DNA from: Tetraselmis striata
Lineage: Eukaryota > Chlorophyta > Chlorodendrophyceae > Chlorodendrales > Chlorodendraceae
Length of the DNA: 64,000 bases
Direction: 5' to 3'
Assembly: GCA_006384855.1 (NCBI GenBank)
Contig: VCJN01001809.1
Coordinates: 1-64,000 of the forward strand
In this document: in pieces, positions 8,989 to 64,000 of the stretch
Layout of the letters: each line of letters starts with the position of its first letter
Numbering within the stretch: the first letter of the stretch is position 1
Translations under genes and position numbers: made by a program
The notes under the pieces: generated by a model
Told to the model about the DNA's origin: nothing
Database searches by the model: none
The model's input: the letters and a program-made list of their open reading frames with translations, nothing else

Positions 8989-9109
8989 GTTGATGACAGA
9001 TTCGCAATGCAACTATAGTAGTACCACTGATTAGATCGCTTACATATACTAGCTATTCTAATATGCACTCTACGCGCACTTGGGCCTCAATAGCGCGCTG
9101 CGCGCGCCT

Positions 9110-9250: not shown

Positions 9251-9307
9251 TGGGGGCACACGAATCGCGGATCGCCTCAGTGCATGTAATCACTTCTTTC
9301 TTTCCAG

Positions 9308-9394: not shown

Positions 9395-10803
9395 GTGAGC
9401 AAGGGCTACCGGGCGGTTGAGACAGCGCAACCATGCGAACGGGCTGCAGGAGGCCAACGTGCCCGTCGTAAGGATCCGCATCAAGGTTGAGGGTAATAGA
9501 CATAAATATCAATGATAACAGTCGCAACTAAATTAAATCGCTAAATATCGATTATATTATCAATTAATTCCCGCATCATTACTAGTGATGCATCATTTTG
9601 CTGCGCGATCGAGCTCAATCATCCGATAATAATTCATCGATTCTCGATGCGGAGCCTTCACAATCCGAGGGCGCTGTCTCGTCGGCCTCGTCGCGCCACC
9701 AAGGCGGTCGGCTCGGCAGCGTTGACAAGGTCACGAGGGCAGCAGGCGGGCCGTCACGGGCAAGAGTCACGGCGCTAGTTGCTGGAAATTGATGGTGCGC
9801 GTGGTTGGAGAACTTGGAGGAAATGTAGGAACATGATGCATGTTTTTAAATGTGCAGACTTGGGTACGGGAATTTCAACAGCGTTAGGAGCGTTGCTGGG
9901 CTGAAGTCAGCTTTCGGGGGTGGGGAGGGGGTGGGGGGCATCGACATATACAGCTGGCGCAGGGTAGGGGCTACTCAGCTCCTGATGCAGCAGCCCCCCC
10001 GGAAGGCTCTTGCCAGTAGCCACTTTGACACTTCGCTGGTCAGGTGACACAAACCTTACAGCAGTAAAAGATATGCAATGAGGAGGGGGGGGTTCCTTCC
10101 GTCGACAGCGGCCTCCAATAGAAACCTGGTTTTGTGAATGCATGCCTCATTCCACCATTCTACTGACCTCCGTGTAACCGACCCGGCGCAACACTCTCCT
10201 GGAGCGCGGTGCATTTTGCCAGGGCGCCTCACTCCGGTGCCGCTGCAGCTGCATCCATCGGCACCAGAGCGAGCCGCCTTGCCCTCTCTTCAGGTGAACA
10301 GGGGGGGCTTGTAATAATAACTAGCTTACAACTGCCGGCTCGCATGATGTGCCGGGAAATGACGTCCATGAAAAGAGGTGATTCGACCGCCGAGAGGATG
10401 AGCCCCCTCGCTCACCGCCTCTCCTCCTTGCAGACTCTCTCCAGGCGCGCACCCACTACTAACAGCTGTTGTCACCGCTTGGGCGGCAGTCCCAACCAAT
10501 ACAATGCGCCAGTCACTCACTCCTCCGCTTCCCGTCCGCGGGATGACGCCTGCGACGCCGAGGCTGCCCCGGATTCTAGCCGGAGTTTCGACTCCTCCTG
10601 CAGGCGCGCGGGGCGTGCGGCACAGCAGCGCAAGCCGCATTGATTTCGTCAGTCGCATTCGACACATCAGGCGGCATCATCCCATCATGACCTTCGGGGC
10701 GCTCATGGCCCAGTATATATGGCTCTACAGTTGGGCGAAACCGACACGTAAACGCTCGTGCGCGCATGTTGGCATAGACACACACGGCAGTCGCCGCCAT
10801 GCC
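9395..10803. other. 3' flank of the receptor kinase gene, copy A
   Basis: No recognised gene. It probably includes the 3' UTR of the kinase gene, whose stop lies at 10,804. Long open minus frames (10,326-10,667) are of biased composition and are not kept intact relative to copy B. About 196 bp at 10,183-10,378 are absent from copy B. Confidence 0.5.
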
Positions 10804-11902
10804 TCACCACTCTTCGGTCAGCGACTTGACTATTCGATTTGGCATGAGGGCGGTGCCGATCGGCAGGTTGGTCATCGGCGACACCGCGCGGTGGCGCAGG
10901 TGCTCCTGGATCATCGCCCGCTCATACGTCCAGCCATCCTCCGCCAGCACGGGATCCTCCATCAGGTCCATGCTCAGCGGGCACGTCAGCCACTCCTCCA
11001 TGTTCAGCGCTGCCGGGCCGGAGGACGTCGCGGACATGGAGCTGCCCTGGTTAGCCGGCACGGCGTCCTTGAACTCCGACAGCTGCTCCACCACTGCCTC
11101 CAGGGTAGGCCTGAGGGCACAGCACGGTCAGCGCAGTCCACAGCTGCCAGCGCATGGCAGAACCAGCCCATGCGGCCTGAGGGGCCTCTCACGCGGGTGC
11201 TATGGGAGCAACAGCATCTGCAAAACTCACCTGCGGAGGTGCGAGGAATGCACGCATTGCAACGCGAGGCTCATAACGCGGGCGGCCTTCTCCATGTCCC
11301 AGCTCCCGGCTCCAGGCCGGCGGTCCAGTATGTCCATCTCGTCGCCATCGGCCCGTGCGTCCACCATCTCGCTCACCACGCCAGTGGCGTCCCTGCCATG
11401 CCAGACACCGACAGTTCAGCCACGTACATGTCACCTGCTTGCGCCCCACTACCCAGCAAGCCGCGACGTCCTGGCTGCCTGTGGCTTTCGTATGGATGCG
11501 GGGATGGATGGTCAAGGGAGGCTCACGTGCGGCCCAACAGCACCAGCAGGAGGGTCACGCCCACACTGTACACGTCGCTGGCGGCGCGGTACACTCCGGT
11601 GTTGAGGTACTGCAGGTCGATGAAGCCCAAGCTGCCCACCACACTGCTGTGCGTGGAGAGCCGCGAGCCGCCCAGCGGCGCCTCCTTGGCCAGCCCCACA
11701 TCGCCCAGCTTGGCCATGCCGCTCTGGGACAGCAGGATGTTGGAGGGCTTGAAGTCGCGGTGCATAATGGCGGGGGAGCTGTTGTGCAGGAAGAGCAGCC
11801 CCACGCACGCGTCGTACATCATGCGCAGCCGGACGTTCCACGCCACGTCGCCTTCCCTCAGCCGGTCCTCCAGGGTGCCGCCTGTGTGGTGATGGTGGCA
11901 GG

Positions 11903-11933
<31 letters not shown>

Positions 11934-14877
11934 CACGGTTAGCTCTGCTCGCACTGGCGCTTTGCACCGGCTCGGCTCCATGCAGCATCAGCCGCGAGGC
12001 TCCATGGGGCGGACTCCATGCCATGCGCACACTGTGTGATGCCCCAAGACTCCGAAACAGGAGGGTACGCTTGCCGCACTGTGTTCAGATCCCGGCTAGG
12101 GTGTCATGGAGGCGAAGGTGGGGGGAGGGAGGGGGGGGGGGAGGGGGGGGGCGCACCCTCCAGCAGCTCCATCACCATCGCGTGCCGCTCCTCACACGCT
12201 GCGTAGATAGCCACAATGTGGCGGTGCCGCAGCCGCGCCAGCAGCTCCACCTCCGTGCGGTACTCTGGCCGCCCCTGCAGCCCCTCCTCGTCCAGCATCT
12301 TGATGGCCACCGGCGAGCCTTCCAGTGTGCCGCGGAAGACGCTGCCAAAGCCGCCGCTGCCGAGAGCATGCGGGGCGGTCCCCAGGGCGGCCTCCAGCTG
12401 CGCCGCGCTGATGCGTCGCAGGCTGGGTGCCTGGCGATGAGAGCCTGGAGCAATGTTGGGGGGGAGGGGGGGTCTTAGCCGTGCCTGTCCACAGGACGGT
12501 CAGGTGCTCTTGCGCAGTCTAGATACTGTATGCCGGTTGTTCCTGTCCCGTCTGCCCACATGTTCCTCCCACTCCAGGGTATCCACTTGAAAGCATCTAC
12601 CTCATCAGGGATTGAGTCAGCTTCACCGTGGACATTCAAGACTGATGAAGATAGTACCCTACTTACCCGTAGCGATGTATTTGAGAAGTACAGCGAGTCA
12701 CCTGAATGTACTCAATTCAACGACATCCATCATGTCCCAGAGGCAGCGCAGCCCCACCACCACACCCGGCCCAGTGATGCGGCGTCCCCAGCCACCAGTG
12801 CTTGACTGGTCATCAATTAGACATCCTTATGGAGAAAGCAAGGTTTGGACCCCCACCCCGATTCTCACCGGTTATCCACAAACGTCCAGCCAGGTTTGAT
12901 TAGCGTTGATCAGGCTGCCCGGCCTCGTTGATACAATAAGTGAGCATGGCAAAGCACCCATGGCAGGGTTGGGATGAGCACCCTAGAGGAGCAAGAGCGA
13001 GGGGGCGCGCACCAGGCTGAAGAGGGCGCATTGCCTGCCCGGGGCGGTCATCAGCAGTGGCGTCAGCTACATCGGCGGGTATACTGGACACCACGGTGCT
13101 GCTATCGACAAGGGTGTCAATGCCCTCGTTGGGCTCGTCATGGAGTGCTGTGTAGCTTGTTGCCCGCAATCTCGCCGCAGCGTTGCCTACACTCCCACCA
13201 GGCCAGGGGGGCGCTGTTGGCTGCAGGGGGGTGGTCTGATCGGGGCTTGAGCTGGACCACGCCACACGGGCGCAAGTCGCGGGACCCGCATCCGTGTCGC
13301 CGGGAGGCGTCTGAGGGGTGGCGCTGGGCCCTCTGAGCCGGCGATGTCTCAAGATCAAGGCGGTTGCGATGGCGGCCAAAACTGCTGCACCTGCCACGGC
13401 GCCGCCGATGACAGCGTGGGGCACTGGTGGTGGCGGAGCCTGTTGCAGTGTAGGTAGTGGCGATGGTGGTGGTGGTGGCGGAGACTGTTGTGGTGTAGGT
13501 GGTGGCGGTGATGGTGGTGGTGGAGACTGTGGCGGTGTAGGTGGCGGCGGCGATGGTGGTGGTGGAGACTGTGGCGGTGCAGGTGGCGGCGATGGTGGCG
13601 GCGGAGACCGTTGTGGTGTAGGTGGCGGCGATGGTGGTGGTGGCGGAGACCGTTGTGGTGTAGGTGGCGGCAATGGTGGCGGCCTGCATGCCGATCACGT
13701 CATTGCGAGTCAGAATAGTAAAATGGCGCGCGCCATAGCTAACTGAGGGGCGCCGCCGCACTGTTATTCAATGCCAGAACCAAGGCACTGCAGGACCAAG
13801 GCACTGCAGGACCAAGGGTGGCGGGGGACAGATTTTGGGGCTTGCCTGGACTTCTGCGTGGGCAGGGTGCGGGCGCCTCCGTAGTAGCCCCCGGTGGAGA
13901 GGAAGTTGGAGGAGACGTCTCTGCATGCAGCAGGTCAGTTACACAACCACCGTTGCCATGCGGTTTGCGGGCATGGAATCACGCCATTGCAGGCCAAACG
14001 TGCAGAGCGAAAGGCTTACGGGTGGCACATACGTCTCCGCTGCAGATCCGTACAACCACAACACAGCCAAGCAACCCCCTGTGGAGTCAGCATGCTAGGG
14101 GGAACGAGGAAAGGGGGGGGGGGGGGGGGGGGGCGCTCACAGGGTGCTCAGCCCCGTCAGGGCGCTCAGCTGCAGAGGCACCGTGCCGGTCAGCTGATTG
14201 TTGGAGAGCCTCCTGCAGGGGCAGTAGTGTCACCATTGTTCCCCCCCCCCCCCCCCCCCCCGCACACCCCCTCTCCTGACCAACCCAACTGCTTGCTCCT
14301 CCACGCCCCCCCTGCAGCTCTGTACGACCACGAGCTCTGTGCAGCCAAGCAACCCCCTTCCCGGGTCAGCAAGCAAAGGGGGGGGGGGGGGGGGGGGCTC
14401 ACAGGTCGTCAAGCCCAGTCAGCGTGCTCAGCTGCGGAGGCACCGTGCCGGTCAGCTGATTTTCGTGGAGGTACCTGCAGGGGCAGTAGTGTCACCGTTA
14501 TTCCCCACCCCCGCTCAGCCCCTCTCCCACCCAACCCAACCGCTCGCTCCTCCACGTCCCCGCTGCAGCTCTGTGCGACCACACCGCAGCCAAGCAACCC
14601 CCTTTCCGGGTCAGCAAGCAAGGGACGGGGCGGGGGGGGGGGGGGGGGCTCACAGATAGTCAAGCCCAGTCAGCGTGCTCAGCTGCGGAGGCACCGTGCC
14701 GGTCAGCTGATTGTTGTAGAGGTACCTGCAGGGGCAGCGTCACCGTTATTCCCCACCCCCGCTCACCCCCTCTCCCACCCAACCCACCCGCTCGCTCCTC
14801 CACGTCCCCGCTGCAGCTCTGTACGACCACAACGCAGCCAAGCAACCCCCTTCCCGGGTCAGCAACCTAAGGGGGGA

Positions 14878-14908
<31 letters not shown>

Positions 14909-16514
14909 TCACAGCCGGTCCAGCCCCGTCAGCGGGCTCAGCTGCGGAGGCACCGTGCCGGTCAGCGTATTGTTGTGGAGGATCCTGCAGGGGCAGTAGT
15001 GTCACCGTTATTCCCCACCCCCGCTCACCCCCTCTCCCACCCAACCCACCCGCTCGCTCCTTCACGTCCCCGCTGCAGCTCTGTACGACCACAACGCAGC
15101 CAAGCAACCCCCTTTCCGGGTCAGCAAGCAAGGGACGGGGCGGGGGGGGGGGGGGGGGCTCACAGATAGTCAAGCCCAGTCAGCGTGCTCAGCTGCGGAG
15201 GCACCGTGCCGGTCAGCTGATTGTTGTAGAGGTACCTGCAGGGGCAGCGTCACCGTTATTCCCCACCCCCGCTCACCCCCTCTCCCACCCAACCCAACCG
15301 CTCGCTCCTCCACGTCCCCGCTGCAGCTCTGTGCGACCACACCGCAGCCAAGCAACCCCCTTTCCGGGTCAGCAAGCAAGGGACGGGGCCGAAGGGGGGG
15401 GGGGGGGGGGGGGGGGGGGCTCACAAGCTGCTTAGCCCAGTCAGCGTGCTCAGCTGCGGAGGCACCGTGCCGGTCAGCTGATTGTTGTGGAGGTACCTGC
15501 AGGGGCAGTGTCACCGTTATTCCCCACCCCCGCTCACCCCCTCTCCCACCCAACCCACCCGCTCGCTCCTTCACGTCCCCGCTGCAGCTCTGTGCGACCA
15601 CACCGCAGCCAAGCAACCCCCTTTCCGGGTCAGCAAGCAAGGGACGGGGCCGGGGGGGGGGGGGGGGGGGGGGGGGCTCACAGATAGTCAAGCCCAGTCA
15701 GCGTGCTCAGCTGCAGAGGCACCGTGCCGGTCAGCTGATTGTTGTAGAGCCACCTGCAGGGGCAGTGTCACCGTTATTCCCCAACCCCGCTCACCCCCTC
15801 TCCCACCCAACCCACCCGCTCGCTCCTCCACGTCCCCGCTGCAGCTCTGTACGAGCACAATGCAGCCAAGCTACTCCCTTCCCGGGTCAGCAAGCTAAGG
15901 GAGGAAGGAGTGGGGGTGGGGGCGGGGGGGTGCTCACAGGCCGATCAGCCCAGTCAGGGCGCTCAGCTGCGGAGGTAGCGTGCCAGTCAGCTGATTGTCG
16001 TGGAGGCTCCTGCAGGGGCAGTGTCACCGTTATTCCCCACCCCCGCCCACCCCCTCTCCCACCCAACCCACCCGCTCGCTCCTCCATGTCCCCGCTGCAG
16101 GTTTGTACGACCACAACGCAGCCAAGCAACCCCCTTCCCGGGTCAGCAATCAAGGGGGGGGGGGGGGGGGGAGGGGGGAGCTCACAGCCTGTCCAGCCCA
16201 CAGCTCGCGCTTACCACAACACCAACTAGTATGCCGTTGAGGTCTTGGCATTGTCGCTGTCTCTCAGATATGCAGTGTGTCAACCCGCCACGCCACCACC
16301 ACCACCATTGATAAACCGTCCCAACCAAGCCCATTCTCGCCCAAATCATACGGGAGTTCAGAGACTTACACGGAGCTTACTCGGCCCGCCTCGTCGCAGG
16401 ACACGCCCGCCCAATCCTCACAATGATTGGCGTTGTAGATCCAGGAGGAAATGCTGCTCCCAGTGGGCGGATCGCTCTGCTGCTCGCGCACCGCCCACAA
16501 TGCATCCTTCTCTG
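10804..16514 (-). CDS. LRR receptor kinase with C-terminal U-box, copy A
   Basis: A likely plasma-membrane receptor that joins a kinase to an E3 ubiquitin-ligase U-box. Exons from 5' to 3' on the minus strand: LRRNT 16,370-16,514 (EKDALWAV, NHCEDWAGVSC); eight 72-nt LRR exons between 16,009 and 14,141; LRR cap 13,852-13,920; Pro-rich stalk, membrane helix (GGAVAGAAVLAAIATALI) and juxtamembrane 13,013-13,683; kinase N-lobe 12,157-12,444 (LGSGGFGSVFRG, VAIKML); catalytic exon 11,527-11,881 (HRDFKPSNILL, GDVGLAK); 11,231-11,392; and last exon 10,804-11,110 with RPTLEAVVEQL followed by the U-box (CPLSMDLMEDPVLAEDGWTY). Intron phases join correctly throughout. DVG replaces DFG and the APE motif is degenerate (GFIDLQY), as in plant U-box kinases. 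The signal-peptide exon upstream is not resolved, and a possible degenerate first LRR lies near 16,186-16,260. About 850 residues. Confidence 0.85.
13440..13683 (-). repeat. Pro-rich stalk coding minisatellite, copy A
   Basis: Imperfect units of about 36-45 nt encode (S)PPPPTPQ(Q/R)SPPPP, a hydroxyproline-rich-type stalk between the LRR cap and the membrane helix. Copy B has 78 more residues here (905-nt against 671-nt exon). Both lengths keep the frame. Confidence 0.85.
14101..16200 (-). repeat. Tandem LRR exon-intron cassettes, copy A
   Basis: Eight cassettes of about 190-270 bp, each with one 72-nt exon: 14,141-14,212, 14,403-14,474, 14,654-14,725, 14,913-14,984, 15,164-15,235, 15,425-15,496, 15,682-15,753 and 15,938-16,009. 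All encode one 24-residue plant-type LRR (YLHNNQLTGTVPPQLSTL...) with phase-2 introns. Each intron starts gtgag directly followed by a poly-C run of variable length and ends cccctgcag. Introns are nearly as alike as exons, showing recent amplification of the whole cassette. Confidence 0.95.
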
Positions 16515-25301: not shown

Positions 25302-25323
25302 TGTATAATTTACATGGACATAT

Positions 25324-25839
25324 TTATGCCAGGAGGTCTACGACGTTGCTCTTACGCTTGCGGAGATTAATCACGGTAAACTTGCGCTGGAACTGGCCCC
25401 ATGGCTCTTCCTCATTCTCCACGATGCGAGAGAAGACGTGTTCCGGAGGCTTGATGGAGGCTACGCGAATCTCCTTGGCCAAAAAGGGAACCGATTCACG
25501 GTTCCGCCACTTGACAGTCTTGGGCCACTTATCGACGAGGTCCAGGAGTTCAGAGAACTTAATCTGGCCACGAAACTCGTTGAAAATAACAACGGGGTGA
25601 CCCTTGTAGCCGTCCCACCATTCCTCGTTGAGGTTCTTCACATAGTGTGTGTCGGGATCGTATCCTTCGAAAACCTTGTGGCTCTTGCCACTTGCGGTGG
25701 GACCGGTGTACCAAATGCCCTTTGTTACTCCGGAGCTCTTATTGTTCGGATGGGCATCATCATACAAGCATCGATAGTTCGATACGACACACGCCGGGCG
25801 CGCTGATGCGGGGATATTAAGTTGGTCGTGCGGGTGCAT
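25324..25839 (-). pseudogene. Rep helicase part of the CRESS fossil
   Basis: It shows Walker A in GIWYTGPTASGKSHKVF, Walker B in VVIFNEFRGQIKFSELL, and a motif C region in IRVASIKPPEHVF, followed by an arginine-finger-like RKF. This order and the NEFRG form are typical of CRESS Rep helicases. Only this part of Rep is recognisable. Confidence 0.8.
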
Positions 25840-50563: not shown

Positions 50564-51412
50564 CAGCAATTTATTTGTAATTCACACCAGCACCAGGCTC
50601 AAGCCGCGATGAGTACAGGTATTTGCATATTCGTGGCACTACTCGTAGGTCGCCGGTACGTATAATTTTCTTGGTTACAGGGAGCGTCCAGAGTAGCGAC
50701 TAGAATGCACTACGGAAAGTATTAATGGGAAGGTTATCATTAATTGCTGCTCAGTAGTTAATAATTATTTAATTATTTATCATTATTAATTTCACCAGTA
50801 ATTGCAATAATAAGCAATTAATGATCAGTAATTAATAATTGTAGTATTTACAGAAGTACCTGGTTTAATTACTTTCCACGGATGAGGATTACAGCAAATG
50901 ATGCGACATCAACAGCAGCACCATCAGGTGTATGAGATGCATATAGTCGCTAGTCGCTAGTCGCTAGAGAGAATATGATAGCGACTCGAGAGTCGCTACC
51001 TGGTACCCTCGCTACGATCAGTCATCCTCAGCAGCTATATTTTTTGCGCTACAGGATTGCCAGTAGTTACCACTCCTACCTCTATTTTACCGATGATGAT
51101 AGCCGCTACATAACATGGCTATATATCTGTAGGAGCTACAGGGTACGAGAAAGCGGTACTTCTCGTACCAGAAGGCAGTATACGGTACTTCTCATCGTAC
51201 CATGTAGCAGCGCAGTAGGGGTACAATAAGGATTAGTAGTATGGTAGTACCGATCATTACCTACGATCCCGTCCTAATATACTGGTACGATGACTAAGTG
51301 AGTCACCGCGTCACCGTCAACATTATTGTCGTCGGGCGGCATGGTGGAGCGCGTGTCCTCCATCAACGTGCCTGCCGAAGCTGGTGCGTCCAAGTGCTAA
51401 TATCCACTGTGC

Positions 51413-51464
<52 letters not shown>
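50564..51464. other. Noncoding repeat-rich stretch (copy B)
   Basis: Counterpart of 1-938, with the same AT-rich run, tagtcgct palindromic words and the (GT)n-poly-G tract at 51,411-51,462, which is longer than in copy A. Confidence 0.7.
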
Positions 51465-51466
<2 letters not shown>

Positions 51467-51974
51467 TTAGCGAGATTGCGCACTTGATGACGGCCTGAAA
51501 CTTGAACTCGCAGACGTTGAGCGTCAGGAGAGTCACGCCGAGGATGGCCCACGGCACGAGCTGCGCGGCCGAGAGAACCTCATCAGGCGAATGAAGAGCC
51601 GCCGTGCACCAGGCGCACCACAGTACGCCCAGCACTGGGATCCATGGGTGCCGTTCCAGGACGCGATCGCACTCAGATATACACCAACGATTCAGAAAAA
51701 TCACCAGACCCGGACGCGGCGCCGTCTCTGGTCGCATGACGGCGGTGGCGTGCAGGGCGCCTTTTGCCGCCGGGACTCGCACCAGCGGGCTCAGCACTGG
51801 CGATTCAACACTGTATGTCTCCGACAAACCTCGCCAAATGTGATCACGTCTGATAAACTCTAACTGAGAGTGTATCGCCCTGCACCAGGCACATATGCGA
51901 CGCTGTGCTGAGACGCGGGGAGCAAGGACGAGCACGTTCCGCTGATGCGAGAGAGTTTTTCTTCTAGCCAGCAA
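51465..51974 (-). CDS. Membrane-protein gene fragment, copy B
   Basis: An open minus frame with two hydrophobic segments (WIPVLGVLWCAWCTAAL and LVPWAILGVTLLTL) joined by a short polar loop, preceded by RPGLVIFLNRWCISECDRVL. It ends at AAGA|gtcccc, a possible donor followed at once by poly-C as in the LRR introns. There is no ATG at the upstream end, so this is probably an internal exon. The next exons are not recognised. Copy A is frame-shifted. Confidence 0.35.
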
Positions 51975-52278
51975 CTTCGTATGCTTGCTTGAGTCTTCGG
52001 TGTGTCGGGCTAGCAGAAAGTGTCGGCAGCAAAGGCTCTGGCGGTGGTGAACGGGCAGGTTGGCAGGACAACAGTTTTCGTCGATCTTGCTTACGACGGT
52101 ACCTGTTCCTGTATTCGGGTGCGGAGCAGAGGCAGATGCAATGGTATTATCGACAATAAATCGCCGCCCTACTTCTTGCTGTATTAGGTAGGTACCCGTA
52201 CACGTTCCCGTACCGATACATGTAATCCTTACTAAGGATTACAGGCGTGAAAGTAAAAGTAAAGTACTGTACAGTTAA
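51975..52278. other. Intergenic stretch (copy B)
   Basis: Counterpart of 1,414-1,713. Nothing recognised. Confidence 0.5.
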
Positions 52279-52508
52279 GTTCGCCCCGGGACGTCGTTGG
52301 CGGAAGCCGTCCCAGCACTTGACCTCTTGCGCCAACTGCAGCCATAGGTCTGGCATAGCCCGTACGGGTAGACCATTGCCTCATTCGAACCCCGAAGGGC
52401 TATTGCATCAACCGGGGAAACGCCGGGACGAAATGCCGAAAATGCATCGGCCAGGATTCGATACCCGGACCTCTCGCGTACGAGACGACCGCTCAACCGA
52501 GCGGACAA
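52279..52508 (-). repeat. tRNA-derived SINE, intact copy B
   Basis: Minus strand: the head has A-box-like cgctcggttgagcggtc and B-box-like gggtatcgaatcc, followed by a body with atgcattttcggcatttcg and a second B-box-like ggggttcgaatg. About 230 bp. It shows the uninterrupted sequence across the insertion site used by the recombinase element in copy A. Confidence 0.8.
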
Positions 52509-52534
52509 GGGATGTACCTTGTTCGTGAAAGTAC

Positions 52535-53786
52535 GCTTTTCCGATGTAATTTCCTTCTTTAGCTGCCCCCCCCCCCCCCCCCTGATTTTGCGGCAAGCGC
52601 ACTTTGTTCGTCAGGGAAGTTCAGTGTTGTGTAAAATACTGTTTTGTGTCATTTACGCAGGTTTTCCTCTGTTAATACCTCCTGCGCATTGCTGAAAGTG
52701 TTGTAGGAGTGCAGTGAGTGCACTGAGAACAAGCCGTATATGGTGCCGAACATGTACACCACAATTACAGCTTGCTGAGGCTACGCCCTTAACCCTCCCG
52801 GCCTCACAGCCTATTGTCTTCTTATTGCTCGCTGCTCGCTATCACTGCTCTCTCGCTGTCACTGTCACTCTGCCTAATGTCCAACAGCTCTTGCTCCCTG
52901 TGCATCCGGTTTGCCTCCCTCTTGTCGCCATGTCGTTGCTGCAACTCATGGTGCTTCTACTCAGTCAGCTCGATCTCCATCGCCTCCTCCTGGTCGATGT
53001 CGATCACCTCCTCCTTTTCCCCGGCCGGCTCTGGCTAATGTTGCTTGTCATCCTGCTTGCTCTTCCTTGCGTCTGCTGCCTTGCGCGCCTCCTTGCGTCC
53101 CAGCTGCTCGAAGAGCTTCTTGTTATCGGCCTTGCCGCCACGCACCAGCTCCTTCGCTCCTTGTTCCCGGCAGGTGGGGCACACTGGTAGAACGATGTGG
53201 AAAACATGCACCGGCTCCTCGTCCACAATGCCATCGTCGTGGTTGGCGTTGCCACAGTAAGCACACATATTCGGGTCGTGCCACTCGCTGGGCTCGTCAG
53301 CGTAGTAGTCCACCTCCACTGGCTGGCTGCAATCGTTGTTGCTGTAGGAGAAGAAGTAGAGATGTGTGAGGGGATTGTCAGCTTCCGAGCTCGGCAGCCT
53401 TACCGAGGGGGCGTCGTCCCACTTGACTACTGAGACGCTGATCATGCGGACTTGTGGCAGCGGGGGGCGCCGAGATGGCCCCGCCTCGTCCGCCATCGCT
53501 GCTGTCCTCCATCGCGGGGCAGGGAGGGTGCTTGGGGCTGTTGGGCGGTGGATAAAGTGGGAGTGACGGTTGCTGTTGCGGGCCGCATAGTTAATGATAG
53601 CGTGCCAAGCAGCGCGGAAGGGCGCGCGTGGTCGCGCGCTTACTCATCTGCGGTTGTTAGCTCGCGTTTTATGTACTGTTTCGGTTCCCCGAAGAAAGTT
53701 CCATGAGCAAATAAGTCCCCCCCCTTCCCCCCCTCCGAATTTTCGGGAAATTGGCAGCTAAACCAGGAAATCAAGTCGGAAGAGCC
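52535..53786. mobile_element. Short TIR DNA transposon with zinc-motif ORF, copy B
   Basis: Counterpart of 5,212-6,475 with the same ends (left at 52,535-52,567, right at 53,753-53,786) and a shorter poly-C run. Confidence 0.7.
53035..53496 (-). CDS. Zinc-motif protein inside TIR element, copy B
   Basis: 153 codons, same core as copy A (MISVSVVKWDDAPS; MCAYCGNANHDDG; LPVCPTCREQG; lysine-rich tail). The N-terminus here reads MADEAGPSRRPPLPQVRMIS because a G run is one base shorter than in copy A. The core is kept with few changes. Confidence 0.5.
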   Translation of the reverse strand: MADEAGPSRRPPLPQVRMISVSVVKWDDAPSVRLPSSEADNPLTHLYFFSYSNNDCSQPVEVDYYADEPSEWHDPNMCAYCGNANHDDGIVDEEPVHVFHIVLPVCPTCREQGAKELVRGGKADNKKLFEQLGRKEARKAADARKSKQDDKQH

Positions 53787-53858
53787 AGTTCCGCTATTGT
53801 TTCGTCTTCATCTGACCTCTTGCAGGCATAGCTATACCGTAGTAGCAGGTTCACATTC

Positions 53859-56286
53859 AAAGTGCAGTTCATATACGGCTGCCAAGCATATGTCAAATTG
53901 CCGGAAGGGGGGGCAGCCGCAAACTAGACTGCAAAGCAATCAAGCGAATGCGTCATGGTAGGCTGCGCTGAGTTGTCATAGGGTTACGGAATTTATAACC
54001 CGAGAACGGGCAGACTCACTGTCACCATGCATGTCGAATTTAACAAAGCCCTATCTGGCTTCGAAAGGGACTCACCAACGCAGTCCGCCATCATGGTGGA
54101 GGATCCGCCACACGTGACACAGCGCCCACCGGGCTGAGTGATGACCTGCACGACCGCCTACATGACAGCATCTCATATAACACCATCATGATACTACCTG
54201 CCGCAGACCCAGTGGCAATCATTAGAAGCTCACGATGCCGCAAACCCCCGGATCGCCTCATAGCATGCATGGCTCAGACCAGCATCTGCTGTGGCATGCA
54301 AGCAGCAGACATGTTGCCAGACATGGTGGGCAAGCCACCGAATTTATCACCCGCTCCGTTAAATAATACGCAGGACAGCGGCATGCAAGGGCGGCCCCGT
54401 GCTCGCAATCCCGTGGCCATGATGGCCCAGGCTGCACAGAATTCCGCCCTACTGGACACACCTCCGGGAGCCAAGGGATGCATAATCCGTCACTCCGCTG
54501 ATACACTAGTCGCATTTCTGTCTGCTAAGGGCATTCAAATACCTAAAACCCTCAAGCAGACACTTGCCGACCCACAGCATGCAGAAGGATGGAACGGATC
54601 CATCCAAGTGGAATATGACCAGCTTACCGCTAACTGCACATGGCATTTGATTCCATGGCCAGACGGGGCAAATGTTATCCCATGCATATGGGTATTCAAT
54701 GTCAAAGCTGACGAAAATGGGGAACTGGAAAAATACAAGGCCAGACTGTGGCATGTTATCCCATGCATGTGGGTATTCAATGTCAAAGCTGACGAAAATG
54801 GGGAACTGGAAAAAACAAGGCCAGACTGTGGCATGCGGCAACGGGAATGTGGGGCATGATTTTTCGGAGGTGTCCCCACCGGTGATCAGAATATCCAGCC
54901 TTCGCGTGTTTTTCGTCATCGTGGCTGCCAAACGCCTCTATCAGACAGTTGGACACGGTGGCAGCCTACCTCAATGCGGAAATATCCCTGCAGGGGAGAA
55001 GGGGTACATGCGTCAGCCAGATGGTTTGATTCAACGAAGACACATGCAGAGTATGTCAGCTACACTAATAATGCATATACGGTCTTCGCCAATCGGGCAA
55101 GCACTGGAATGACATGATCGCCCGCTGGCTGAAGGATAATGGCTGGGTACAATCCAAGGCCGATGTTGCTTCATATGCATCGCGAAGAACGTGTATGGCA
55201 TCATCGGGCGGCCTACATGTGGATGACATGCCCCTGGCTGGCATCTCTGAGGCGTGGCTGGATGTGTTTGTTACCCACATCAAACAACGGTGTTCACGAT
55301 CAAACAGCAACCGCAGCTGTGGATTCTAGGCATGGGAGTGGATTACGACATAGACCTCAGCAAAATCGCTCTGTTGCAGACAGGCTACATCGATCGGATA
55401 GTAGACAGATTCGGCATGACGGCATGCAACGAAACCGCAATTGCCATGGACAAAAACTACACCAACCATCTGCCATCATTAGCCCCGCCCTCCCCAGCAT
55501 TGGATGCACCAGACAGTCTTCTACAAGCAGATGCTCGGATCGCTAATAGACTTAGCCACGTGCACACGGCCAGACATCAGCATGGCACTCGGCATACTTG
55601 GCAGCGTGCATGGGGCACATGACGGATGCACATGACGGCCCTTAAACGGATACTCCGGTACCTGAAAGGCACCATGGGCCGTGGGCTCACATCGGGCGCA
55701 GCCTCCGATATGATTGCCTCCATTGATCGGACATGTTGATGCTGACTACGCAAATGATCCAGTCCAACGCAGATCCCGGTTCGGCTTTGTATACTCACTG
55801 ATGGGTGATTTTGAGGCATGCAACTGGAAAACGACTCTGCAGCCATGCATTGCGGTATCCACCTGCAAGGCAGAATATATGGCTCTCTGCATGGCCCTCA
55901 AAGACGGCATTCACTTGCGGCTGTTGGTGGAACAACTGCTGGGGCGCTGCACAGAGGAACCCTTGCTGCTACTGGAGGACAATCAGTCAGCTATTAGCCT
56001 CGCAAACAACATCATCATTAGTGACAGAACGAAACACATTGTAAAGTACCACTTCCTCAAGGACCACGTGCAGGCGGACACCGTGCAAATGGCGTACGTG
56101 GCCACAGACGACAATGTGGCTGACATGCCGACGAAACCGCTGCCGGCCCCGGCACTGGCAAAACATGCAAGGACTGCCATGGGCAGGAACATGAATTGAG
56201 AGGACGTCAGATGCCTAGATGTTTTTACATTGCAACAATATTACATTTCTCGTATTGCAGCAAGGGGGGGGGGGGGGGGGGGGGGT
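53859..56286 (+). mobile_element. Ty1/copia retrotransposon fossil, copy B
   Basis: Counterpart of 6,549-8,988, with the same parts: linker, reverse transcriptase pieces, and RNase H end CKAEYMALCMALKD, NVADMPTKPLP. It is broken, with well over five breaks, mostly shared with copy A. No LTR pair is seen. Confidence 0.85.
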
Positions 56287-56404
56287 TGATGGCAGATTCG
56301 CAATGCAACTATAGTAGTACCACTGATTAGATTGCTTACATAGACTAGCTATTCTAATATATGCGCTCTACGCGCGCTTGAGCCTCAATAGCGCGCTGCG
56401 CGCG

Positions 56405-56528
56405 CCTGAGCTCGGAATTGGGGGCACGCAGTAGTGGAGCTCGGAGCTCGGAGCACGCAGTAGCGGAGCTCGGAGCACGAAGTAGTGAAGCTCGGAGCTC
56501 GGAGCTCGGAGCACCCAGTAGTGCAGGT
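56405..56528. repeat. GAGCTCG minisatellite, copy B
   Basis: Shorter version of the array at 9,110-9,250. Confidence 0.9.
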
Positions 56529-56596
56529 CGGAGGTCGAAGCTGGGGGCACACGAATCGCGGATCGCCTCTGCATGTAATCACTTCTTTCTTTCCAG

Positions 56597-56683
56597 CAAC
56601 TCATCGCCTCGCCCTCTGCCTCTGCACCAACGCACACACGAGAGTCGACGTCGAATTCCGCGCTCTACACTCCTGGCCACGAG
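56597..56683 (+). CDS. Possible 87-nt internal exon, copy B
   Basis: Same splice sites and length as 9,308-9,394, with a substitution near the end (ccatgag to ccacgag) that is missense and keeps the frame. Confidence 0.3.
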
Positions 56684-57874
56684 GTGAGCAAGCGCTACCG
56701 GGCGGTTGAGACAACGCAACCATGCGAACGGGCTGCGGGAGGTGCGAGTGCCCGCCGTAAGGGTCCGCATCAAGGTTGACGGTAGTAGACGTAAATATCA
56801 ATGAGAATCGTAACTAAATTAAACCGCTAATTATCGACAATACTATCAATTAATTCCCACATTATTGCTAGCGATGCATCATTTTTTTGCTGCGATTGAG
56901 CTCAATCATAGGATAATAATTCATCGACTCTCGATGCGGAGCCTTCACAATCCGAGGGCGCTGTCTCGTCGGCCTCGTCGCGCCACCAAGGCGTTCGGCT
57001 CGGCCGCGTTGACAAGGTCACGAGGGCAGCAGGCGGGCCGTCACGGGCAAGAGTCACGGCGCTAGTTGCTGGAAATTGATGGTGCGCGTGGTTGGAGAAA
57101 CTGGAGGGCATGTAGGAACATGATGCATGTTTTTAAATGTGCAGACTTGGGTACGGGCGTTCCAACAGCGTTAGGAGCGTTGCTGGGCTGAAGTCAGCTT
57201 TCGGGGGGGGGCATCGACGTATACAGCTGGCGCAGGGTAGGGGCTACTCAGCTCCTGATGCAGCAGCCCCCCCGGAAGGCTCTTGCCAGTAGCCACTTCG
57301 ACGCTTTGCTGGTCAGGTGACACAAACCCGACAGCAGTAAAAGATATGCAATGAGGAGGGGGGGGTCCTTCCGTCGAAGGCGGCCTCCAATTGAAACCTG
57401 GTTTGTGTATGCATGCCTCATTCCACCATTCTACTGACCTCCGTGTAACCGACCTGATTCGACCGCCGAGAGGATGAGCCCCCTCGCTCACCGCCTCTCC
57501 TCCTTGCAGACTCTCTCCAGGCGCGCACCCACTACTAACAGCTGTTGTCACCGCTTGGGCGGCAGTCCCAACCAGTACAATGCGCCAGTCACTCACTCCT
57601 CCGCTTCCCGTCCGCGAGATGACGCCTACGGCGCGGAGGCTGCCCCGGGTACTAGCCGGAGTTTCGGCTCCTCCTGCAGGCGCGCGGGGCGTGCGGCACA
57701 GCAGCGCAAGCCGCATTGATTTCGTCAGTGGCATTCGACACATCAGGCGGCATCATCCCATCATGAGCTTTGGGGCGCTCATGGCCCAGTATATATGGCT
57801 CTACAGTTGGGCGAAACCGACACGTAAACGCTCGTGCGCGCATGCCGGCATAGGCACACACGGCAGTCGCCGCC
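56684..57874. other. 3' flank of the receptor kinase gene, copy B
   Basis: Counterpart of 9,395-10,803 without the 196-bp block. Long open minus frames exist but are compositionally biased. No gene is recognised. Confidence 0.5.
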
Positions 57875-60800
57875 TCACCACTCTTCGGTCAGCGACTTGG
57901 CCATTCGATTTGGCATGAGGGTGGTGCCGATCGGCAGGTTGGTCATTGGCGACACCGCGCGGTGGCGCAGGTGCTCCTGGATCATCGCCCGCTCGTACGT
58001 CCAGCCATCCTCCGCCAGCACGGGATCCTCCATCAGGTCCATGCTCAGCGGGCACGTCAGCCACTCCTCCATGTTCAGCGCTGCCGGGCCGGAGGACGTC
58101 GCGGACATGGAGCTGCCCTGGTTAGCCGGCACGGCGTCCTTGAACTCCGACAGCTGCTCCACCACTGCCTCCAGGGTAGGCCTGAGGGCGCAGCACGGTC
58201 AGCGCAGTCCACAGCCGCCAGCGCATGGCACAAGCAGCCCATGCGGCCTGAGGGGCCTCTCGAGCGGGTGCTATGGGAGCAACAGCATCTGCACAACTCA
58301 CCTGCGGTGGTGCTGGGAATGCACGCATTGCAACGCGAGGCCCATAATGCGGGTGGCCTTCTCCATGTTCCAGCTCCCGGCTCCAGGCCGGCGGTCCAGC
58401 ATGTCCATTTCGTCGCCATCGGCCCGTGCGTCCACCATCTCGCTCACCACGCCAGTGGCGTCCCTGCCATGCCAGACACCGACAGTTCAGCCACATACAT
58501 GTCATCTGCTTGCGCCCCACTACCCAGCAAGCCACGACATCTTGGCTGCCTGCGGCTATTGTATGGATGCGGGGATGGATGCGGGGATGGATGGTCAAGG
58601 GCGGCTCACGTGCGGCCCAACAGCACCAGCAGGAGGGTCACGCCCACACTGTACACGTCGCTGGCGGCGCGGTACACTCCGGTGTTGAGGTACTGCAGGT
58701 CGATGAAGCCCAAGCTGCCCACCACACTGCTGTGCGTGGAGAGCCGCGAGCCGCCCAGCGGCGCCTCCTTGGCCAGCCCCACATCGCCCAGCTTGGCCAT
58801 GCCGCTCTGGGACAGCAGGATGTTGGAGGGCTTGAAGTCGCGGTGCATAATGGCGGGGGAGCTGTTGTGCAGGAAGAGCAGCCCCACGCATGCGTCGTAC
58901 ATCATGCGCAGCCGGACGTTCCACGCCACGTCGCCTTCCCTCAGCCGGTCCTCCAGGGTGCCGCCTGCGTGGTGATGGTGGCAGGAAAGGGGGGGGGGGG
59001 GGGGGGGGGGTGCACGTTTGGCCCAGCTCGCACTGGCGATTTCCACAGGCTCGGCTCCATGCAGCATCAGCCGTGAGGCTCCATGGGGCGGACTCCATGC
59101 CATGCTCCCACTGCGAGGTGCCCCAAGACTCCGAAACAGGACGGTACGCTTGCTGCACTGTGTTCAGATCCCGGCTAGGGTGTCATGGAGGCGAAGGTGG
59201 GGGGAAAGGGGGGGGGGGGGGGGGGCGGGGGGGGGGGCGCACCCTCCAGCAGCTCCATCACCATCGCGTGCCGCTCCTCACACGCTGCGTAGATCGCCAC
59301 GATGTGGCGGTGCCGCAGCCGCGCCAGCAGCTCCACCTCCGTGCGGTACTCTGGCCGCCCCTGCAGCCCCTCCTCGTTCAGCATCTTGATGGCCACCGGC
59401 GAGCCGTCCAGTGTGCCGCGGAAGACGCTGCCAAAGCCGCCGCTGCCGAGAGCATGCGGGGCGGTCCCCAGGGCGGCCTCCAGCTGCGCCGAGCTGATGC
59501 GTCGCAGGCTGGCGGCCTGGCGATGAGAGCCTGGAGAGATGTTTGGGGGGGGGGGGGGGGGGTGTCTTAGCCGTGCTCGTCCACAGGACGGTCAGGTGCT
59601 CTAGGCGCACTCTAGGCACTGTATGCCGGTTGTTCCTTTTCCGCCTGCCCTCATGTTCCTCCCACTCCAGGGCATCTACTTGAAAGCATCTACCTCACGC
59701 CCCAATTTGTGGCTTATCAGGGACTGAGTCACCTTCACCGTGGACATTCAAGATTGACGAAGATAGTACATTAATAAGCCACCAGAGAGATGTATTTTAG
59801 AAGTATGGCGAGTCACCTAAATGTACTCCATTCAACGACATCCATCATGTCCCGGAGGCAGCGCAGCCCCACCATCATACCCGGCCCAGTGATGCAGCGT
59901 CCCCAGCCACCAGTGCTTGACTGGTCATCAATTAGACATCCTTATGGAGAAAGCAAGGTTTGGGCCGCCACCCCGATTCCCACCGGTTATCCACAAACAT
60001 CCAACCAGATTTGATTAGCGTTGATGGGGCTGCCCGGCCTCGTTGATATGAGAAGTGAGCATGGCAAGGCCCCCATGGCAGGGTTGGGATGAGCACCCTA
60101 GAGGAGCAAGAGCGAGGGGGCGCGCACCAGGCTGAAGAGGGCGCATTGCCTGCCCGGGGCGGTCATCAGCAGTGGCGTCAGCTACATCGGCGGGTATACT
60201 GGACACCACGGTGCTGCTATTGTCAAGGGTGTCAATGCCCTCGTTGGGCTCGCCATGGAGTGCTGTGTAGCTTGTTGCCTGTAATCTCGCCGCAGCATTG
60301 CCTACACTCCCACCAGGCCAGGGGGGCGCTGTTGGCTGCAGGGGGGTGGTCTGACCGGGGCTTGAGCTGGACCACGCCACACGGGCGCAAGTCGTGGGAC
60401 CCGCATCCGTGTCGTCGGGAGGCGTCTGAGGGGTGGCGCTGGGCCCTCTGAGCCGGCGATGATGTCTCAAGATCAGGGCGGTTGCGATGGCGGCCAAAAC
60501 TGCTGCGCCTGCCACGGCGCCTCCGATGACAGCGTGGGGCACTGGTGGTGGCGGAGACTGTTGCAGTGTAGGTGGCGGCGATGATGGTGGCGGTGGTGGA
60601 GACTGTTGTGGCGTAGGTGGCGGCGATGATGGTGGCGGCGGCGACTGTTGTGGTGTAGGCGGCGGCGATGATGGTGGTGGCGGCGGAGACTGTTTTGGTG
60701 TAGGTGGCGGCGATGATGGTGGCGGCGGCAGAGACTGTTGTGGTGTAGGTGGCGGCGGTGATGGTGGTGGTGGAGACCGTGGTGGTGTAGGTGGCGGCGG

Positions 60801-63800
60801 TGATGGTGGAGACTGTTGTGGTGTAGGTGGCGGCGGCGATGGTGGTGGTGGAGACTGTTGTGGCCGGGGTGGCGGCGATGGAGGTGGTGGTGGAGACTGT
60901 TTTGGTGTAGGTGGCGGCGGTGATGGTGGTGGCGGAGACCGTTGTGGTGTAGGTGGCGGCGATGATGGTGGTGGTGGAGACTGTGGCGGTGTAGGTGGCG
61001 GTGATGGTGGTGGTGGCGGCAATGGTGGCGGCCTGCGTGCCGACCACTTCATTGTGAGGCAGAATAGAGAAATGGAGCGCACCATAGCTCACTGAGGGCC
61101 GCCGCCTCACTGTCAATCACTGCCTAACCAAGGCACTGCAGGACCCGCGATAGCGGGGGACGGATTTGGGGGCTTGCCTTGACTTCTGCGTGGGGAGGGT
61201 GCGGGCGCCTCCGTAGTAGCCCCCGGTGGAGAGGAAGTTGTTGGACACGTCTCTGCATGCAGCAGGTCAGTTACACGACCATCGTCGCCATGTGGTTTGT
61301 GGGCAGGGAATGACGCCATTGCAGGCCAAACGTGCAGAGCTAAAGGCCAACCGGTCGCGCATGCGTCTCCGCTGCAGCTCTGTACGACCACAACCAGCCA
61401 AGCAAACCCCCTCTCGGGTCAGCAAGCAAGGGGGGAAGGAGGACGAGGGGGGGGGGGGGGGGGGGGGGCTCACAGCTCGGTCAGCCCCGTCAGCGAGCTC
61501 AGCTGCGGAGGCACCGTGCCTGTCAGCTGATTGTCGCTAAGGCTCCTGCAGGGGCAGTGCCACCGTTATTCCCTACCCCCCCCCTCACCCCCTCTCCCTC
61601 CCAACCCAACCGCTCGCTCCTCCACGTCCCCGCTGCAGGTCTCTATGACACAATGCAGCGAAGCAACTCTGCAGGTCTGTACGACCACGAGCTCTGTGCA
61701 GCCAAGCAACCCCCTTCCCGGGTCAGTAAGCAAAGGGGGAAGGAGGGGGGGGGGGGGGGGGGGCTCACAGATAGTCAAGCCCAGTCAGGGCGCTCAGCTG
61801 CGGAGGCACCGTGCCGGTCAGCTGACTGTTGGAGAGGTCCCTGCAGGGGCAGTGTCGCCGTTATTCCCCACCCCCGCTCACCTCCTCTCCCACCCGACCC
61901 AACCGCTCGCTCCTCCACGCCCCCGCTGCAGGTCTGTGCGACCACAACGCAGCCGAGCAACCCCCTTCCCGGGTCAGCAACCTAAGGGGGGAAGGGGGGG
62001 GGGGGGGGGGGGCTCACAGGTAGTTCAGCCCAGTCAGGGCGCTCAGCTGCGGAGGCACCGTGCCGGTCAGCTGACTGTTGAAGAGGTACCTGCAGGGGCA
62101 GTGTCGCCGTTATTCCCCACCCCCGCTCACCTCCTCTCCCACCCGACCCAACCGCTCGCTCCTCCACGCCCCCGCTGCAGGTCTGTACGACGACAACGCA
62201 GCCAAGCCACTCCCTTCCCGGGTCAGCAAGCAAGGTGGAGAGGGGGGGGGGGGGGGGGGCTCACAGGTAGTTCAGCCTCGTCAGGGCGCTCAGCTGCAGA
62301 GGCACTGTGCCGGTCAGCTGATTGTTGTCGAGGAGCCTGCAGGGGCAGTGTCGCCGTTATTCCCCACCCCCCCCGCTCACCCCCTCTCCCACCCAACCCA
62401 ACCGCTCGCTGCTCCACGTCCCCGCTGCAGCTCTGTGCGACCACAACGCAGCCAACCAACTCCCTTCCCGGGTCAGCAAGCAAGGGGGGAAGGAGGGAGG
62501 GGGGGGGGGGGGGGGGGGGCTCACAGGTAGCCAAGCCCAGTCAGCGTGCTCAGCTGCGGAGGTACCGTGCAGGTCAGCTGATTGTCGTGGAGGCCCCTGC
62601 AGGGGCAGTGTCACCGTTATTCCCCACCCCCGCTCACCCCCTGCCCTACCCAACCCAACCGCTCGCTCCTCCACGTCCCCGCTGCAGCTCTGTACGACCA
62701 AAACGCAGCCAAGCTACTCCCTTCCCGGGTCAGCAAGCAAGCGGGGGAAGGAGGGGGGGGGGGGGGGGGGGGGGCTCACAGGCCCCACAGCCAAGTCAGC
62801 GTGCTCAGCTGCGGAGGCACCGTGCCGGTCAGCTGATTGTCGTCGAGCCTCCTGCAGGGGCAGTGTCACCGTTATTCCCCACCCCCCCGCTCACCCCCTC
62901 TCCCACCCAACCCAACCGCTCGCTGCTCCACGTCCCCGCTGCAGCTCTGTGCGACCACACCGCAGCCACGCAACCCCCTTCCCGGGTCAGCAAGCAAGGT
63001 GGAGAGGGGGGAAGGGGGGGGGGGGGGGGGCTCACAGGTCGCTCAGCTCCGTCAGCGTGCTCAGCTGCGGAGGCACCGTGCCATTCAGCTGATTATTGTT
63101 GAGCCACCTGCAGGGGCAGTGTCACCGTTATTCCCCAGCCCTGGTCACCTCCTCTCCCACCCAACCCAACCGCTCGCTCCTCCACGTCCCAGCTGCAGCT
63201 CGGTACGACCACACCGCAGCCAAGCAACCCCCTTCCCGGGTCAGCAAGCTAGAGAAGGGGGGAAGGAGGAGGGGGGGGGGGGGGGGGGCTCACAGGTAGC
63301 CAAGCCCAGTCAGCGTGCTCAGCTGCGGAGGTACCGTGCCGGTCAGCTGATTGTCGTGGAGCCTCCTGCAGGGGCAGTGTCACCGTTAATCCCCACCCCG
63401 CTCACCCCCTCTCCTACCCAACCCAACCGCTCGCTCCTCCACGTCCCAGCTGCAGCTCTGTGCGACCACAACGCAGCCAAGCTACTCCCTTCCCGGGTCA
63501 GCAAGCAAGGCAGGGGGGGGGGGCGGGGGGGCGGGGGGGCTCACAGGTAGTTCAGCCCAGTCAGCGTGCTCAGCTGCGGAGGCACCGTGCCGGTCAGCTG
63601 ATTGCTGTAGAGGCTCCTGCAGGGGCAGTGTCACCGTTATTCCCCGCTCACCCCCTCTCCTACCCAACCCACCCGCTCGCTCCTCCACGTCCCCGCTGCA
63701 GCTCTGTACGGCCACAACGCAGCCAAGCTACCCCCTTCCCGGGTCAGCAAGCAAGGGGGAAGGGGGGAATGGGTCTTGCCATTGTCGCCGTCTCTCAGAT

Positions 63801-64000
63801 ACGCAGTGTGTCAACCCACCACGCCACCCACCACCACCACCAACACCACCATCGATTAAGCGTCCTAACCAAGCCCATTCTCGCCCAAATCATACGGGAG
63901 TTCAGAGACTTACACGGAGCTTACTCGGCCCGCCTCGTCGCAGGACACGCCCGCCCAATCCTCACAATGATTGGCGTTGTAGATCCAGGAGGAAATGCTG
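57875..64000 (-). CDS. LRR receptor kinase with C-terminal U-box, copy B (5' end beyond window)
   Basis: Same gene as copy A. Exons: LRRNT 63,914 to beyond 64,000 (WIYNANHCEDWAGVSCDEAG); nine LRR exons of 72 nt between 63,616 and 61,474; LRR cap 61,184-61,252; stalk plus membrane helix 60,128-61,032 (905 nt); kinase 59,243-59,530, 58,610-58,964 and 58,302-58,463; last exon with U-box 57,875-58,181. The four kinase/U-box exons have exactly the lengths of copy A (288, 355, 162 and 307 nt). All motifs are kept: VAIKML, HRDFKPSNILL, GDVGLAK, and U-box DPVLAEDGWTYERAMIQ. Differences between copies fall in LRR number, stalk length and introns. No stop interrupts the model, so both copies may be functional. 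Predicted to act at the plasma membrane, sensing a ligand and linking to ubiquitination. Confidence 0.85.
60541..61032 (-). repeat. Pro-rich stalk coding minisatellite, copy B
   Basis: About 14 imperfect units encode PPTPQQSPPPPSS and variants. It is 78 residues longer than in copy A and in frame. Confidence 0.85.
61434..63770 (-). repeat. Tandem LRR exon-intron cassettes, copy B
   Basis: Nine 72-nt exons: 61,474-61,545, 61,769-61,840, 62,018-62,089, 62,265-62,336, 62,525-62,596, 62,780-62,851, 63,036-63,107, 63,294-63,365 and 63,545-63,616. All have phase-2 boundaries, gtgag then poly-C at the donor, and ctgcag at the acceptor. The remnant at 63,735-63,770 has lost its exon. Confidence 0.95.

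Follow-up and report, generated by a model that had tools for sequence, protein, structure and literature searches.

Genes of the green microalga Tetraselmis striata that probably encode a leucine-rich repeat receptor, a kinase and a U-box in one polypeptide

Two related genes were found on a 64,000-nucleotide stretch of DNA (the window) of the green microalga Tetraselmis striata, positions 1 to 64,000 of contig VCJN01001809.1, which is C1460:1-64000 in the searched genome of 224 Mb and 2903 contigs. Both genes lie on the minus strand, at 16,511-10,577 (copy 1) and 64,055-57,652 (copy 2), and show the same domain order: an LRRNT-like cap, leucine-rich repeats (LRRs), a proline-rich stalk, one transmembrane (TM) helix, a kinase and a U-box. 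In our opinion, each gene is probably a single-pass LRR receptor, the cytoplasmic half of which is an RLCK-IXb-type kinase fused to a U-box. The computed support for this comes from the exon structure, the completeness of the U-box sequence, the reading frame of the TM helix, the kinship of the kinase to U-box kinases and the way in which LRR variation gathers on the concave face. Land plants usually have two separate proteins as receptor and ubiquitin ligase. No description of such an architecture was found in the titles and abstract openings of the top matches in the literature searched, a collection outside which most subscription journals lie, and nothing related was found there for Tetraselmis together with the U-box.

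The splice models contain 15 exons per copy with consistent phases, the copy 1 set including its LRRNT-like exon. The exon sizes in both copies are 142 nt for the LRRNT-like cap, 72 nt (phase 2) for each LRR and 75 nt for the LRR end. Then come the exon of the stalk, TM helix and juxtamembrane part (671 nt in copy 1 and 905 nt in copy 2), kinase exons of 288, 355 and 162 nt, the U-box exon and a last exon of 22 nt. The LRRNT-like exon of copy 2 occupies contig positions 64,055-63,914, and the 5' part of this gene runs past the window edge.

16370..16511, minus strand: copy 1, LRRNT-like cap exon (EKDALWAV..CEDWAGVSC), placed by phase, acceptor GCAG and donor GTAAGT
14141..16009, minus strand: copy 1, eight 72-nt LRR exons, phase 2 (Pfam LRR_1/LRR_4/LRR_8; identical to the deposited protein P0001)
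16009-15938, 15753-15682, 15496-15425, 15235-15164, minus strand: copy 1, LRR exons 1-4
14984-14913, 14725-14654, 14474-14403, 14212-14141, minus strand: copy 1, LRR exons 5-8
13846..13920, minus strand: copy 1, final LRR half-repeat exon, followed by a GC-AG intron (splice model)
13013..13683, minus strand: copy 1, exon of the Pro-rich stalk, TM helix and juxtamembrane part (splice model, copy comparison)
13350..13412, minus strand: copy 1, TM helix VIGGAVAGAAVLAAIATALIL (Kyte-Doolittle 2.21; conserved in members 4 and 5 of the family)
12157..12444, minus strand: copy 1, kinase exon 1 with the G-loop and VAIK (splice model, Pfam)
11527..11881, minus strand: copy 1, kinase exon 2 with HRDFKPSN and GDVGLA (splice model, Pfam)
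11231..11392, minus strand: copy 1, kinase exon 3 (splice model)
10806..11110, minus strand: copy 1, end of the kinase and the greater part of the U-box (splice model, Pfam; donor TG/GTGAGG, the slash marking the exon end)
10577..10598, minus strand: copy 1, last coding exon with the U-box end, RSRNSG and stop (C-terminus of P0001)
63914..64000, minus strand: copy 2, in-window part of the LRRNT-like exon
61474..63616, minus strand: copy 2, nine 72-nt LRR exons (splice model, Pfam)
63616-63545, 63365-63294, 63107-63036, 62851-62780, 62596-62525, minus strand: copy 2, LRR exons 1-5
62336-62265, 62089-62018, 61840-61769, 61545-61474, minus strand: copy 2, LRR exons 6-9
61178..61252, minus strand: copy 2, final LRR half-repeat exon, followed by a GC-AG intron (splice model)
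60128..61032, minus strand: copy 2, exon of the Pro-rich stalk, TM helix and juxtamembrane part (splice model, copy comparison)
60468..60530, minus strand: copy 2, TM helix (hydropathy)
59243..59530, minus strand: copy 2, kinase exon 1 (splice model, Pfam; in the JGI protein P0124)
58610..58964, minus strand: copy 2, kinase exon 2 (splice model, Pfam; in P0124)
58302..58463, minus strand: copy 2, kinase exon 3 (splice model; in P0124)
57877..58181, minus strand: copy 2, end of the kinase and the greater part of the U-box (splice model, Pfam; in P0124)
57652..57673, minus strand: copy 2, last coding exon, RSRNSG and stop (P0124 ends TEEWRSRNSG)

The kinase-U-box parts of copies 1 and 2 are identical at 350 of 363 residues (96%). 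LRRs, kinase and U-box also occur together in two public gene models (jgi/Tetstr1, EukProt): TSEL_020715 (P0001), which is 100% identical to copy 1 over the kinase-U-box part, and TSEL_042717 (P0002), 97% identical over this part, which represents a third copy on contig C2717. Two diverged members, 4 and 5, are carried by contig C2627, and both have an exon homologous to the LRRNT-like exon of copy 1. Member 4 consists of the cap, LRRs, stalk, TM helix and the first kinase exon, with 80% identity across 40 residues, after which the contig ends. Member 5 (C2627:55,000-64,900, L028) has the cap, LRRs, stalk and TM helix with a stop shortly after it, and no kinase was found within 5.9 kb beyond the helix; it is possibly an LRR-TM protein without a kinase or a decayed gene.

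Pfam profiles matched both copies above the curated cut-offs for LRRs (LRR_1, LRR_4, LRR_8), Pkinase (E 1.9e-35 and 4.2e-36) and U-box (E 1.3e-10 and 3.3e-10), the kinase immediately preceding the C-terminal U-box. LRRNT_2 had no Pfam match in either copy, and the cap is named solely from its WxGVxC motif, which we take to be a mark of LRRNT-like caps. NCBIfam profiles gave matches far under the cut-off only, and no N-terminal USP-like domain of the land-plant form was detected (no PF00582 at E <= 0.001). An earlier note, made from the letters of this DNA, had described one spliced gene leading from the LRRNT cap through LRRs, stalk and membrane helix to the kinase and U-box, with the same layout at 10,804-16,514. 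The phase-consistent models and Pfam matches agree with this, the second locus being our copy 1 with its 15 exons; among the profiles suggested there, those of the U-box and kinase match and LRRNT_2 does not. The C-terminal position of the U-box was likewise recognised correctly, but the 307-nt exon is not the last one. The U-box exon closes with EE-W before a GTGAGG donor, inside which the in-frame TGA is situated, and RSRNSG with the stop is encoded by the separate 22-nt exon; P0001, P0002 and P0124 have the same end. With RSRNSG added, the U-box aligns to the solved plant U-boxes 7xed (U-box protein 12) and 1t1h, and the alignment (7xed, E 3e-12) reaches residue 75 of 77. The kinase Lys, catalytic Asp and DxG Asp are all present, with DVG in place of DFG. 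The AlphaFold model of the kinase-U-box protein P0124 has a mean pLDDT of 81.3 and a pTM of 0.73; blocks 311-380 have pLDDT 74-92, and the segment 296-310 before the U-box falls below 50.

Each LRR is encoded by one 72-nt exon within a tandemly repeated exon-intron unit of ~250 bp, and therefore units can be gained or lost without a shift of frame; there are 8 LRRs in copy 1, 9 in copy 2 and 16 in copy 3. Variation was studied in 32 of the 33 LRR exons of copies 1-3, one exon of copy 3 having been missed by the search pattern. It is highest at positions 23, 24, 2, 4 and 5, which presumably form the xxLxLxx concave face. These five positions show 1946 nonsynonymous vs 86 synonymous pair differences, the other 19 positions show 876 vs 798, and thus ~69% of the amino-acid-changing differences are held by the five, figures that describe related repeats with non-independent pair counts and carry no formal test. 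Such concave-face variation would be expected of a recognition receptor. As its source, a mutational hot spot at the exon ends is not favoured, since the adjoining intron letters of 17 LRR exons hardly vary; this check is partial, CCTGCAG and GTGAGC having been demanded by the search pattern. In most LRR introns the GTGAGC donor is immediately followed by a long run of C (window 61,440-63,560 and 14,100-16,150; a G run on the plus strand), which is an unusual composition for an intron.

The kinship of the kinase was studied with a midpoint-rooted tree of 37 kinase domains (38 were chosen, and P0147 was dropped for its length), the subfamily labels being given by names and domains. On one side of a branch with support 95/88 are 13 U-box rows, together with 4 PUB-like rows for which no U-box is listed and an ankyrin kinase of Prymnesium; the other side contains 15 kinases chosen as lacking a U-box (14 from land plants and one from Chara). 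Four further rows with a U-box, two PUB50 and two ENA, have long branches and fall outside the U-box side. The kinase of the copies is placed on the U-box side, apart from the LRR receptor-like kinase (LRR-RLK) rows, which were few (LRR-I, SYMRK-type, At3g14840/At1g07650-type and one fern). The DFG site was readable in 287 of 352 fetched proteins; DVG or DMG was found there in 25 of 27 proteins with the U-box motif vs 31 of 260 without it, and of the 31, 13 have a PUB name, bear USP or contain a U-box missed by the pattern. Because of the tree placement and the DVG/DMG signature, it may be concluded from sequence that a U-box kinase of RLCK-IXb type, a class we take to be that of the PUB kinases (USP-kinase-U-box), gained an ectodomain. 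The origin is thus not the one that the wording of the earlier note suggests, an LRR receptor kinase to which a U-box was added: the one-piece layout is supported by the exon models and TM frame, and an LRR-RLK origin does not agree with the kinase tree, the kinase grouping with kinase-U-box proteins and carrying DVG.

The front ends joined to the kinase-U-box core, as seen in the best 120 matches of each protein search, are diverse. This core follows USP in land plants (P0126, P0242), ankyrin repeats in Chlamydomonas incerta (P0129) and Myrmecia bisecta (P0130), WD40 repeats in T. striata P0003-P0009 (loci C2725 and C1568 checked), FH2 in T. striata P0010 (C614, C2811) and RNI-type LRRs in P0011 (T. 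striata, C2063) and, elsewhere, P0238. In a set of gene models (P0237-P0239, P0121-P0123) the N-termini of which may be wrong, the core was also noticed behind an EH domain (P0239), behind five hydrophobic segments (P0237) and behind a signal-like start with one TM helix (P0122). The ENA proteins P0121-P0123, P0237 and P0238 are probably not T. striata genes: the U-box pattern occurs at 11 places of the genome, on C614 and C2811 (FH2 type) and on C2725 and C1568 (WD40 type), of which the last two contigs were each checked at one locus. Judging by these sequences, the U-box kinase makes up the core, to which the LRR-TM part is attached as one front end among several. At C2725:82,120-151,422 and on C1568, genes for WD40-kinase-U-box proteins stand in tandem arrays, many of them at intervals of ~10 kb. 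Ubiquitin-hydrolase (UCH) exons are found near both checked WD40 loci; UCH is N- or C-terminal in the models P0006 and P0003, which are perhaps neighbouring genes fused by the predictor. In the kinase-U-box protein P0128, a long repeat-like region follows the U-box rather than preceding the kinase.

In a survey of 15 plants, two Chlamydomonas kinases are assigned to RLCK-IXb, a clade perhaps ancestral to RLK subfamilies (PMC10152718). Other surveys report LRR-RLKs as absent from five green algal genomes (PMC5296948), count LRR-RLKs in green algae (PMC10834447) and give 54 of 58 algal RKs and RLCKs as lacking a TM helix (PMC10916322).

Several known systems resemble the T. striata copies in part. 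Plant U-box kinases (RLCK-IXb / PUB) have the same order of kinase and C-terminal U-box, the same side of the 95/88 branch and DVG for DFG, but they bear USP, whereas the copies have an LRR ectodomain and a TM helix. The chlorophyte ankyrin proteins P0129 and P0130 share the kinase-U-box order and DVG and differ by the ankyrin front end and the absence of a TM helix by hydropathy. The WD40 (P0003-P0009) and FH2 (P0010) proteins of the same genome are 69-71% and 55% identical in the kinase-U-box part and differ by their front ends, with no clear TM helix in P0003, P0005 and P0010, which were tested. Plant LRR-RLKs have an LRRNT-like cap, plant-type LRRs, a TM helix and a kinase, and the copies would work like one of them; their kinase is placed elsewhere in the tree and lacks the U-box. 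The cap and LRRs of the copies are, we assume, of the plant extracellular type. Plants also couple a receptor kinase to a separate PUB ligase, as described for BRI1 with PUB12/13 and PID2 with OsPUB15 (PMC8875423, PMC4330927), and ERECTA works with two PUBs; a kinase receptor is coupled to a U-box ligase in both cases, with two proteins there and one chain in T. striata.

In our reading, a ligand would bind outside the cell to the variable face of the LRRs and pair the receptors, and the paired kinases would phosphorylate each other and probably also the flexible linker before the U-box. The U-box would then recruit an E2 and ubiquitinate the receptor, its partners or membrane-held proteins. 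The most likely function on this evidence is that of a ligand-sensing receptor ubiquitinating in cis, and we infer that it could ubiquitinate its own targets, as the earlier note had supposed. A variant compatible with the receptor reading, possible although rather doubtful, is that the U-box serves self-control only, activated receptors ubiquitinating themselves and being removed, while the kinase alone signals. Plant receptor kinases are indeed ubiquitinated or attenuated by separate PUBs, as reported for BRI1 (PMC8875423) and ERECTA (PMC9873567), but the kinase-U-box pair is kept with several TM-less front ends, so receptor turnover cannot be their shared purpose.

The membrane helix was examined by comparison of the copies, since the deposited models translate the stalk in a different frame (AATIAATYTTTV...) and leave the helix out. 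Pairwise among copies 1-3, the stalk differences at third codon positions are 13/24, 14/28 and 11/21 in the frame of the helix (PPP) and 5/24, 7/28 and 4/21 in the deposited frame. Synonymous stalk codons number 13, 10 and 9 in the PPP frame, and synonymous codon changes make up 2/21, 4/22 and 2/16 in the deposited one; the helix itself gives small counts of synonymous and changing codons (3/0, 3/1, 2/1). All 15 pairwise indels in the stalk/TM exon are multiples of 3, while intron indels also measure 1, 2, 4, 5, 7, 13, 16, 19, 28 and 35 nt. In members 4 and 5 the helix remains hydrophobic and alignable with 28 and 16 of 90 nt changed, and in member 5 the LRR end, stalk and helix form a single open reading frame (ORF). 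The substitution pattern, the indels and the two diverged members favour the TM reading over the deposited frame, and a single helix between the ectodomain and kinase is accepted on the basis of frame-specific substitutions, hydropathy and conservation in members 4 and 5.

A number of findings, together with the deposited frame and the non-independence of the LRR pair counts, weigh against the receptor reading. The non-concave LRR position 18 also varies and accounts for a third of the 876 changes. The TM layout depends on a GC-AG intron; most indels of the stalk exon fall in Pro repeats built on 3 nt, indels of 3 and 9 nt downstream of the helix lying outside them; and the juxtamembrane part has no excess of silent changes (silent/changing 2/7, 3/7, 5/9). 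The APE site of the kinase reads LQY, which may lower its activity. The silent/changing codons of the copies compared pairwise are 3/4, 4/6 and 1/3 in kinase exon 1, 1/7, 1/1 and 0/6 in kinase exon 3 and 2/3, 2/5 and 0/2 in the U-box exon. Changing codons mostly equal or outnumber silent ones, and therefore the usual ratio shows no strong constraint on these young copies; constraint on the kinase and U-box is, in these sequences, visible in total divergence only. No signal-peptide exon was found when the upstream regions of copies 1-3 were aligned and five loci were scanned over 1.4-3 kb upstream for ATG exons with the right phase, a hydrophobic start and common donor forms, a single weak candidate appearing in member 5 only. 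A 12-residue first-exon candidate, MLHWAAGLLILC, noticed by eye in copies 1 and 3 with the weak donor GTCCCA, has no counterpart in the rearranged upstream region of copy 2 and was not accepted. Finally, the first residue of P0124 is an internal Met that lies past the TM helix.

Some of these points would suit a soluble LRR-kinase-U-box protein that acts as an intracellular sensor, comparable to the RNI-LRR and WD40 versions, with the deposited models being right and the helix spliced out or read in another frame. This we consider unlikely. TSEL_020715 and TSEL_042717 indeed have no helix, a signal peptide was not found and the tested WD40, FH2 and RNI-LRR relatives have no convincing TM helix, but the acceptor apparently used by the copy 1 model (TGTAG) is TGTGG in copy 3, and synonymous changes in the deposited frame are few. 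The conservation of the helix in two diverged members and the presumably extracellular type of the cap and LRRs also speak for the membrane receptor.

That the copies are recent duplicates without function seems very improbable. They lie within a duplication with ~47 kb between matching points, the silent/changing ratios of the kinase exons are not high, and member 5 lacks a kinase within the 5.9 kb examined. Against this, the frames are open, and the exons are conserved relative to introns: differences in kinase/U-box exons vs introns are 22/1111 vs 98/1093 for copies 1-2, 22/1111 vs 88/1063 for copies 1-3 and 16/1111 vs 73/1067 for copies 2-3. Moreover, the spliced protein of copy 2 is present in JGI data as P0124 (382 aa; 4 contigs, the longest of 3,626 bases), which is letter for letter the last 376 aa of spliced copy 2 plus RSRNSG. 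P0011, also from JGI, maps to C2063 as seven exact blocks with gaps between them. These contig proteins most likely derive from transcripts, because they match genome exons without introns; as P0124 begins past the helix, it does not prove that LRRs, TM helix and kinase share a transcript. The wrong joining of two adjacent genes, LRR-TM and kinase-U-box, to which this start of P0124 and the possible LRR-TM protein of member 5 could point, is the least credible explanation, as the order is the same in copies 1, 2 and 3, member 4 has LRRs, helix and first kinase exon together, and the deposited predictions join the two parts.

As for the setting of the genes, a segmental duplication (window 1-16,600 and 50,600-64,000) contains both receptor copies, with two-copy repeat families 47 to 50 kb apart that are 86-100% alike among those listed. 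An ORF of 280 aa at 24,495-25,337 on the minus strand, with a basic N-terminal half and no Pfam match at E <= 0.01, resembles, as a guess, a capsid protein of a small DNA virus. No relative was found in viral contigs in a single scan.

If the receptor is made as modelled, a single polypeptide perceives a signal, phosphorylates and ubiquitinates, which would provide a compact case for studying the coupling of receptor kinases with U-box ligases. The LRR-TM-kinase layout would then have arisen also on another lineage of green-plant kinases, which has been proposed to be ancestral to RLK subfamilies (PMC10152718). The deposited gene models hide the TM helix, and therefore such a receptor would escape any survey of algal receptors that relies on these models. 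More tentatively, the chlorophyte genes may represent a modular recognition system, in which a kinase and U-box output cassette is wired to interchangeable sensors and the LRR branch diversifies the surface that faces the ligand through tandem units of exon and intron, each encoding one repeat. Such receptors, perhaps serving to recognise microbes or mating partners, would form a family that evolved independently of the LRR receptor kinases of land plants and signals straight into ubiquitin.

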